Source: Gammaproteobacteria bacterium
GTDB lineage: Bacteria; Pseudomonadota; Gammaproteobacteria; Competibacterales; Competibacteraceae
Assembly (NCBI GenBank): GCA_020047885.1
Contig: JAIFNF010000198.1
Coordinates: forward strand, 1-7,851
Direction: 5' to 3'
DNA: 7,851 nt
Position 1 is the first letter of the stretch, and every line of letters begins with the position of its first letter. Of the stretch, positions 280-7,851 are shown in pieces. A program made the translations under genes and the position numbers. Below the pieces are notes generated by a model. It made no database searches, was not told where the DNA came from, and saw nothing but the letters and a program-made list of their open reading frames with translations.

Positions 280-346
280 AGCCACGGAAAAACACGGAAA
301 AACACGGAAGATTCTTTTTCCGTGCCTTCCGTGTCTTTCCGTGGCT
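280..346. repeat. Long imperfect inverted repeat of CACGG-A-rich 10-bp units
   Basis: The left arm (280-309) begins AGCCACGG and contains three CACGG cores at 283, 293 and 303, exactly 10 bp apart and separated by A runs. The right arm (318-346) is its near-complement, with CCGTG at 320, 329 and 339 and ending in CCGTGGCT. The 8-base loop (310-317) is GATTCTTT. Only a few positions mismatch, including one unit that is 9 bp rather than 10. The element sits between two convergent genes. No run of T follows the hairpin on either strand, so it is not a canonical intrinsic terminator. It could still block or protect transcripts of both genes, or be a dispersed palindromic (REP/MITE-like) element. 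Confidence 0.8.
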
Positions 347-6522: not shown

Positions 6523-7005
6523 CTATTCAATGACCAGCAGGGGTTGGTCGTATTCGACCGGTTGACCGTTTTCGACCAAGATGCGGGTTATGGTCCCGGA
6601 ATAGTCCGCGTCAATCTGGTTGAACATCTTCATCGCCTCAATGATGCAGGCTGGGTCGCCGGTAGTGACGGTCTGGCCGATTTCCACAAACGGCTTGGAT
6701 CCCGGCGTGGCCGAGCGATAGAAGGTACCGACCATCGGCGCCCGCAGGATATGCCCCTTGATGGCGGGTTCCGCTTCAGCAACCGGTGGCAGTGCGGCAG
6801 GCGTGGCGGCGGGTGGATGAGCCGATGGTGGCGCACCGTAACCGGGCATCGCCCAAAAGGGCGGCGACATGGTCATGGGCGCGCCCCCTTGAGGATGGCG
6901 ACTGATCCGCACCGAATCCTCACCCTCCTTGATTTCGATTTCGGCAATACCCGAGGTTTCGAGCAGCTCGATGAGCTTCTTGACTTTGCGAATGTCCATC
7001 GGCAT
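6523..7005 (-). CDS. accB: Acetyl-CoA carboxylase biotin carboxyl carrier protein AccB
   Basis: AccB carries biotin between biotin carboxylase and the carboxyltransferase. The 160-residue product (E. coli 156) has an N-terminal segment opening [19 protein letters not shown], a Pro/Ala-rich flexible linker (about 38-82), and a C-terminal biotinyl domain with the 'thumb' [18 protein letters not shown] (89-106). The biotinylation motif is EAMKM with K126 as acceptor, and the end PLLVIE is the family's usual end. The open frame reaches a GTG at 7071, but that adds an unrelated basic stretch. The ATG at 7005 has AGGA 10 bases upstream, and the ATG at 6999 (MDIRK) is the exact E. coli-type start and remains possible. 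It lies 62 bp downstream of the Rpn gene stop with no clear promoter in the gap. E. coli accBC is autoregulated by AccB, but nothing here lets me confirm that. Confidence 0.96.
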
Positions 7006-7027
7006 GGCAGCGGAGTCCTGATCAAAC

Positions 7028-7056
7028 AAAGGGAGCGATTGCCGCTCTATCCCTTT
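7028..7056 (-). terminator. Weak stem-loop in the accB leader / Rpn 3' end
   Basis: AAAGGG (7028-7033) pairs with CCCTTT (7051-7056), and AGCG (7034-7037) pairs with CGCT (7043-7046) around a 5-base loop, with a 4-base bulge (7047-7050). On the minus strand the stem is followed by a mixed T stretch (TTTGTTTGA including the stem end). It lies between the Rpn stop (7068) and the accB ATG (7005). It could be a leaky terminator for the Rpn gene or an RNA structure in the accB leader. The bulge and poor T tract make either role uncertain. Confidence 0.25.
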
Positions 7057-7067
7057 CCCAGATCGCT

Positions 7068-7418
7068 TCACTGTGAGGGCGTTTCTGCAAAAACTTCTAC
7101 CAAGCTCGGTGCCGTCAAGACCCGCTCGCCCCAGATGAGCAGCGTATCGCTGTCCGCTGCCGCCAACCGCGCCAGAATTTCGGCATCCAGGGATCCGAAG
7201 CGCCGAGCCAACAGGCGTTGTAACAATAATAATTCACCTTCCTGACGGCCTTCCTGACGGCCTTCCTGACGGCCTTCCTGATGGCCTTCCTGACGGCCTT
7301 CCTGACGGCCTTCCTGACGGCCTTCCTGACGGCCTTCCTGACGGCCTTCCTGACGGCCTTTTTCGATCCCCTGCTGTTTCCACTCTTGGGTCCACTCGAT
7401 CACTCGTTCCGCTAACAT
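7068..7418 (-). CDS. Candidate internally initiated C-terminal Rpn product (RpnS-like antitoxin)
   Basis: Inside the Rpn gene an in-frame ATG (7418-7416) starts a 116-residue product opening [17 protein letters not shown], then the GRQE repeat helix and the DUF4351-like tail, ending at the shared stop. It is preceded by GAGG (7430-7427) with an 8-base spacing, a better Shine-Dalgarno arrangement than several of the annotated genes here have. In studied E. coli Rpn loci the separately translated C-terminal domain (RpnS) dimerises through a helix that can contain four-residue repeats, and it blocks the toxic full-length RpnL. The placement of a start just before a four-residue repeat array matches that design. 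I see no convincing promoter directly upstream, so it may come from internal ribosome entry on the full transcript. Expression is inferred, not shown. Confidence 0.45.
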
Positions 7419-7851
7419 GTTGTGTACCTCGCTCAGTTCCAATACGGCATCAATGCGTACTCCCGGCACGCGTACCGGCAGCAGCACGTCGCGTAACCAC
7501 ACGGCAAAGGCCCGGCGTAAACTGTCTTGCCGGGGCGCTTGTAACCAGTCAATCAGGCGTTCGATCACCGCCTGCACGTCGTCCGGCCCCCGGCTATTTT
7601 CCAACCGGAAGAGCGCCGCCGCCAGGTTCTGTAAGGGGGCTAACTCGGCTTCCTGATAGCTGTTTTCTTCCAGTAGCAGATAGTGCAACCGGGGTTGATA
7701 CTGTTCCAGTCCCACCGGTGGGGGCACGATGAGATCGGTCAGCTGGGTCTTGGCCGTCCAGTGGCGTCGACCGTTGTACAGCACGATGGGAACCACCGGC
7801 GGTAATAGGTCGTCCTCGGTGAGCTGCTTGGTGCGGATCAAATCCTGATAC
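7068..7851 (-). CDS. Rpn family nuclease / YhgA-like putative transposase, N-terminus cut by window edge
   Basis: The frame enters from the right edge (visible start YQDL, then [14 protein letters not shown]) and ends at TGA 7068-7070, giving about 260 residues. The PIVLYNG segment and following helical region are typical of the Rpn/YhgA (Transposase_31-like) family: PD-(D/E)XK nucleases once linked to RecA-independent recombination and, for several E. coli members, reported as toxin-antitoxin anti-phage proteins. The catalytic motifs lie N-terminal to what is visible, so activity cannot be judged. Downstream are [17 protein letters not shown], ten GRQE-type repeats, and a DUF4351-like tail ([18 protein letters not shown] ... 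GERVL...SLVEVF). A TTG at 7841 is in frame, but family-like sequence continues beyond it, so it is not the start. No frameshift is visible. It immediately precedes accB on the same strand. Confidence 0.85.
7237..7356 (-). repeat. Ten 12-bp tandem repeats encoding (GRQE)10
   Basis: Ten consecutive copies of CCTTCCTGACGG (plus-strand reading) fill these 120 bases. Nine are identical and one (7273-7284) has C to T at 7282, turning the seventh Arg of the array into His (GHQE). The unit length is a multiple of three, so gain or loss of copies by slippage keeps the Rpn frame open. The encoded charged, glutamine-rich repeat is predicted to be an extended helix or linker between the nuclease part and the C-terminal tail. 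The near-identity at DNA level points to recent expansion or ongoing homogenisation. Confidence 0.97.
7427..7430 (-). promoter_or_regulatory. Internal Shine-Dalgarno before ATG 7418
   Basis: GAGG on the minus strand, within CGAGGT, lies 8 bases before the in-frame ATG inside the Rpn gene. It supports internal translation initiation of the C-terminal product. Confidence 0.45.

Follow-up and report, generated by a model that had tools for sequence, protein, structure and literature searches.

The rpn gene and its genomic setting

The window (the whole stretch of 7,851 nucleotides that was analyzed, from a bacterium of the Competibacteraceae) carried at its edge the 3' part of an rpn gene, within which an internal start was predicted for a second, shorter product. 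The features of this gene were located as follows.

7068..7850, minus strand: 3' part of the rpn gene, 260 codons plus stop, comprising the second half of the nuclease domain, the repeat helix and a DUF4351-like tail
7427..7430, minus strand: internal Shine-Dalgarno sequence GAGG, made up of a Glu GAG codon and the first base of a Val GTA codon
7416..7418, minus strand: internal ATG at which the predicted short product would start, the sole in-frame ATG in the visible gene
7068..7418, minus strand: frame encoding the predicted RpnS-like short product, 116 aa followed by the stop TGA at 7070-7068
7239..7358, minus strand: ten 12-bp units, nine encoding GRQE and one GHQE, in the predicted long helix (TRF 7237-7360)
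7071..7256, minus strand: end of the array and C-terminal tail, with the DUF4351 match covering 7256-7164 (fragment residues 199-229)

The window edge cut the rpn gene, and its 5' part, including the catalytic half, lies upstream of 7851, outside the window. The 260-residue fragment matched PF04754 (Transposase_31/YhgA-like nuclease) at 34 bits (cut-off 21), over positions 102-195 of the 203 in the Transposase_31 profile. Its closest full-length relative, P0001 (381 aa), covered 100% of the visible fragment and scored 100.8 bits against PF04754. TIGR01784 (NCBIfam Rpn family nuclease) gave 17.8 bits on the gene fragment alone, its curated cut-off of 52.1 being set for whole proteins.

Pfam matches were obtained for the seven genes downstream of rpn on the window side, which we take to be accB, accC, prmA and genes for a Fis-type regulator, a HAD hydrolase, a DAHP synthase and an ABC-F-like protein; no evident defence gene was found among these seven. 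Just past the 3' end of the ABC-F-like gene, window positions 283-343 held two short tandem arrays of 10-bp units, CACGGAAAAA and TTCCGTGTCC. The closest accB region (L238, 90.7% DNA identity) aligned from window position 7040 on and was without rpn. Similarly, none of the 30 accB loci read, drawn from the 36 of 40 searched genomes that had accB, carried rpn upstream of accB within 1.5 kb (647 bp in one locus). The absence of rpn from that region and from all 30 loci suggested that the rpn gene in the window had probably been acquired in this lineage specifically, which agrees with the reported mobility of rpn. Within window positions 7033-7068, homology with the closest accB locus started at 7040, marking an insertion or replacement edge, and a terminator-like hairpin at 7047-7033 (minus strand) spanned that edge.

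The predicted internal start within the window

Read on the minus strand, GAGG was followed by a spacer of eight bases (7426-7419) and the ATG at 7418, precisely as the original prediction had described, and the frame of about 116 residues claimed to begin there ran for 116 residues to its stop. The same prediction had described the repeats as (GRQE)10; ten 12-bp units were indeed present, but they encoded nine GRQE and one GHQE rather than ten GRQE. The codon at 7418 was the sole ATG among 19 scored in-frame ATG, GTG or TTG codons of the visible gene (one TTG at 7841 was too near the window edge to be scored), and anti-Shine-Dalgarno pairing was strongest at this codon, at -9.6 kcal/mol, with runners-up at -8.6 and -7.8. 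When the window peptide was recoded synonymously, an equally strong site arose in 24% of draws, and the 7418 site, taken from the window alone, was therefore not beyond chance; its strength comes from relatives. RNA folding around the window start was weak, as 199 of 200 shuffles folded at least as well as the real sequence. A consensus scan gave no sigma-70-like promoter match in 6900-7851. An internal transcript start is reported for all rpn genes in the available text of Zhong et al. (PMC10327210).

The internal start of E. coli rpnA, proven by mutation, is Met244 according to the available text of that preprint (PMC10327210). Scored in the same way, Met244 outscored every other in-frame site within the last 45% of rpnA, at -8.5 kcal/mol, close to the -9.6 of the window site. 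The strongest sites in rpnB, rpnC and rpnE were Met244, Met241/242 and Met244 (-8.7, -10.8 and -8.7 kcal/mol, respectively); internal starts are stated to exist in these three genes, their positions not being given in the available text (PMC10327210).

Conservation of the start codon and Shine-Dalgarno sequence

A protein search found 3430 relatives, of which 120 were listed, and the residue counts given here refer to those 120. The internal Met was kept in 118, and neighboring residues were equally constant (Glu-4 in 119, Leu+1 and Trp+8 in all 120). The nuclease half was homologous to E. coli RpnA (32% over 120 residues for relative P0026). The residues mutated by Kingston et al. (2017) include, in RpnA numbering and as far as the available account goes, the catalytic D11, D63, E82 and Q84. 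Among the 120 listed relatives, D63 was present in 104 and E82 and Q84 in 106 each, the rest being gaps, and D11 was present in 91, with 27 gaps and 2 other residues; D63, E82, Q84 and R94 were kept wherever the listed relatives covered them. In the window gene, the positions of D11, D63, E82 and Q84 lie beyond the window edge, and these counts are those of the relatives alone.

DNA of the relatives was taken from public genomes, yielding 163 rows, 137 of them distinct, and 124 genes after thinning at 90% DNA identity, the window gene included; 22 tblastn hits were dropped because they failed to cover the site, and loci L017 and L082 lay outside the set. The relatives included an intact Candidatus Contendobacter gene (L001/L065) with an open frame of 366 codons, and Nitrosomonas was among the carriers named in the protein search. 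The later set consisted of the last 40 loci, which were fetched from already sampled genomes after the hypothesis had been fixed, and 36 of these survived thinning. ATG occupied the internal-start codon in 110 of 124 genes and stood one codon upstream in another 11. Five genes (L132, L216, L109, L089 and L106) had no Glu aligned at -4. In the remaining 119, the Shine-Dalgarno Glu codon was GAG in 117, where the other Glu codons of each gene predicted 52.7; the two with GAA were L164 and L143. The preference was complete in the later set (35/35 vs. 14.8 expected) and in the first set of 93 genes once thinned to less than 65% DNA identity (28/28 vs. 12.6 expected). Among the 12 other columns that held 40 or more Glu, the largest GAG excess was 14 percentage points, in contrast to 52 at the Shine-Dalgarno Glu. 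The codon before this Glu preferred CAG (23/24 vs. 15.2 expected), AAG (11/11 vs. 5.8) and GAG (14/17 vs. 6.3), and therefore the site extends to AGGAGG.

Spacing was also preserved. GAGG stood 8 nt from the start in 87 of 124 genes, and GGAG stood 9 nt away, which is the same place, in 11; the rest had GGAG at 6 nt (11 genes), GAGG at 11 nt (8), one of three other spacings (1 each) or no scored site (4). In one group the Met was shifted one codon upstream (e.g., L-K-E-L-K-M-T-L), with GGAG still 6 nt away. Only L143, L109 and L089 lacked ATG both at the site and one codon upstream. L143 was the one gene of the 124 missing both GAG and ATG, and by eye, though unscored, L109 and L089 had a nearby ATG behind a purine-rich stretch. 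In L106 the Glu-Val peptide motif was gone, and a GAGGAG stretch before the ATG persisted in another reading frame.

Comparison across relatives showed that the internal start and its Shine-Dalgarno sequence are under selection. Conservation of this Met and Shine-Dalgarno sequence among homologues had been named as a check on the original prediction, and it was passed strongly. Dual translation from one gene, the central proposal of that prediction, is well supported, as conservation at the level of individual codons across the 124 genes, later set included, argues strongly for two products.

Other signatures of a probable translation start

Across 236 codon columns, the most deviant was the codon right after the ATG (Leu TTA, 28 vs. 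4.9 expected), followed by the Shine-Dalgarno Glu. Two remote codon columns reached z values of 9.2 and 9.0, which indicated that shared ancestry of the genes inflates the scores and that simulated p-values overstate certainty; we therefore gave weight to effect size and to the later set, not to p-values. TTA followed the ATG in 8 of 35 genes of the later set (1.6 expected). The Glu at +3, just after the start, had the opposite bias to the Shine-Dalgarno Glu, with GAG in 13 of 72 (36.0 expected), and its preference for GAA was not significant in the later set (14/20 vs. 11.1).

Anti-Shine-Dalgarno pairing exceeded the mean of synonymous recodings in all 90 genes tested (3 of the 93 were left out), and the excess at the site was the largest of 78 positions sampled every third codon. 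Taken gene by gene, the recoding test reached p <= 0.05 in just 13 of 90 genes, with a median of 0.16, and the case from this test rests on agreement among genes and not on single genes. The RNA around the start was the least folded of 38 sampled positions, and in 111 of 121 genes it lay above the mean of the gene concerned; structure was nearly as weak at positions 15 nt to either side. The codon choice after the ATG and the weak local RNA structure look like those of a translation start.

The C-terminal module

A Gly-led array began after a 16-residue lead, with one unit encoding GIEK followed by the ten 12-bp units, of which nine were identical and one had a single change (TRF: period 12, 10.3 copies, 98% match). 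The first array Gly was residue 17 in the window gene, and the same held for 87 of the 105 usable genes that had ATG at the site, the window gene included. Among 38 pairs whose residues before the site were 88% identical or more, the length of the short product differed in 34, and by a multiple of four in 26. Larger differences were also observed. The two copies within the 4-kb locus L133 had nuclease halves 0.99 identical and last 48 residues 0.50 identical, and L195 and L202, from one genome, gave 0.97 and 0.52, respectively; in the pair L192/L185, the tail was as conserved as the rest (0.96 and 0.98). Because nearly identical nuclease halves carry tails only about 50% identical in some pairs, some members of the family may plausibly have swapped the C-terminal module as a whole. 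A first look at genome G417 gave 90 candidates for the family (5 scored), and some genomes gave dozens, which suggests large rpn expansions.

DUF4351 (PF14261) matched the 260-residue fragment at 26.5 bits (cut-off 25) and the 116-residue piece alone at 17.8 bits, below the cut-off. The short products of 73 relatives were scanned. They came from the 93-gene set and had to begin with ATG at the site, end in a stop, contain no masked bases and reach at least 65 residues; the window gene was excluded. DUF4351 matched 64 of these 73 at E <= 0.05, which indicated that the DUF4351 tail is the norm in this rpn branch; in a few relatives (L008, L107 and L118), the tail resembled that of RpnA instead, as judged by eye. 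No DUF4351 match at E <= 1 was found in E. coli K-12 RpnA, RpnB, RpnC, RpnE or YpaA. The tail had originally been presented as a variant worth describing. This stood with respect to the five K-12 proteins, but not for the family at large, given the matches among relatives and the DUF4351 annotation of free-standing RpnS genes in some species, which is already in print in the available text of PMC10327210.

The AlphaFold2 model of the short product predicted a long helix over residues 3-74 and then short helices (pLDDT 82.2, pTM 0.52). The modeled outline was like that of RpnA-S (PDB 7TH0), as far as it is described in the available text of PMC10327210. A profile comparison of the short product with RpnA-S gave no sequence-profile similarity (hhalign probability 0.4%). 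Residues 246-326 of P0001, a region beginning just before the internal Met, matched phrog_4785, a 94-position phage-protein family of unknown function, possibly reflecting phage-borne pieces of such genes.

Relation to E. coli Rpn and a proposed mechanism

Experiments have established a gene-within-gene arrangement of Rpn in E. coli and, with E. coli as the expression host, for one C. difficile gene; the short E. coli products that were tested block the long proteins with which they pair (Zhong et al. 2023, preprint, PMC10327210, available text). The window gene shared with E. coli RpnL-RpnS the Transposase_31 nuclease domain, an internal ATG with a Shine-Dalgarno sequence, and a small C-terminal product, predicted in the case of the window gene. 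Four-residue repeats soon after the internal Met were a further likeness, beginning here with the Gly at residue 17 and, in the available text of PMC10327210, 8-20 residues after the Met. It differed from K-12 Rpn in its DUF4351-like tail, and K-12 RpnA differed in turn in that no repeat array was seen by eye. Free-standing DUF4351 proteins share the domain to which the window tail matched, whereas the window tail is fused to a nuclease and would be reached by an internal start.

We consider it highly probable that this rpn gene is read twice, to give the full nuclease and a short RpnS-like product, the likely inhibitor of that nuclease. Ribosomes starting at the far 5' end would make the full PD-(D/E)XK-type nuclease (RpnL-like), and ribosomes at the internal ATG 7418, guided by GAGG, would make the C-terminal 116 residues alone. 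The short product would be a long helix, lengthened by four-residue repeats, with a DUF4351-type tail, and would most likely pair with the same helix in the full-length protein, holding the nuclease inactive. Stress such as phage infection may then shift the balance and free the nuclease. Repeat number and tail sequence would set which partner is recognized; in E. coli, one extra repeat in RpnC breaks and restores the partner match (PMC10327210, available text). The role of the short product as an antitoxin is likely by analogy with E. coli, given the kinship of the nuclease and the shared layout. By the same analogy, we infer an RpnLS-type action against phage, as RpnP2 reduces the plating of some T-even phages in the available text of PMC10327210.

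The window gene could instead be a decaying remnant in which the start signals survive from an active ancestor. Several relatives have internal stops, L017 and L082, in which the gene is broken by stops, have ATA in place of ATG, and the 5' half of the window gene is out of view; the visible 260 codons are nevertheless open, running from the latter half of the nuclease domain through the repeats and tail, and we regard decay as unlikely.

The short product could also be made without being an antitoxin, serving instead to complete the nuclease complex structurally, in the way that Cas11d partners Cas10d. Cas10d/Cas11d has the same genetic layout, with one gene, an internal start and a second product, although the proteins are different and the Cas11d short product helps rather than inhibits (per the available text of PMC10327210). 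Two long and two short subunits fit the E. coli RpnA complex in the same source, and the tail type had no detectable sequence likeness to the tested RpnA-S. However, the tested E. coli short products block their long partners (PMC10327210, available text), and the nuclease half is homologous to RpnA, which makes a purely structural role quite unlikely.

Production of the full-length nuclease alone, with Met and GAG kept for the protein motif L-x-E-V-x-x-M-L-A-E-R-V, would agree with the high conservation of the neighboring residues, yet it is very unlikely, as a protein need would be indifferent to GAG or GAA, the other Glu columns have no comparable GAG excess, the 11 genes with Met one codon upstream and GGAG 6 nt before it are not predicted by a peptide need, and L106 keeps GAGGAG before its ATG in another frame after losing the Glu-Val motif.

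Implications for the Rpn family

Gene-within-gene Rpn in E. coli and DUF4351 on free-standing RpnS were already known, and to these the window gene adds a member. With dual translation and a likely inhibitor as the preferred reading, our comparison indicates that selection maintains the internal start across a large branch in which most tails are of the DUF4351 type. The codon-level test needs DNA sequence only, and can be used on other Rpn families or to find other intragenic antitoxins. The findings also offer a concrete hypothesis for the function of DUF4351. We tentatively propose, at a little short of an even chance, that DUF4351 is a family of intragenic antitoxin domains. In this large branch, the nuclease half could stay near-constant and the module after the start, comprising repeat number and DUF4351 tail, would be diversified or exchanged as a unit, so that a genome may hold a number of near-identical nucleases whose individual inhibitors are not interchangeable.
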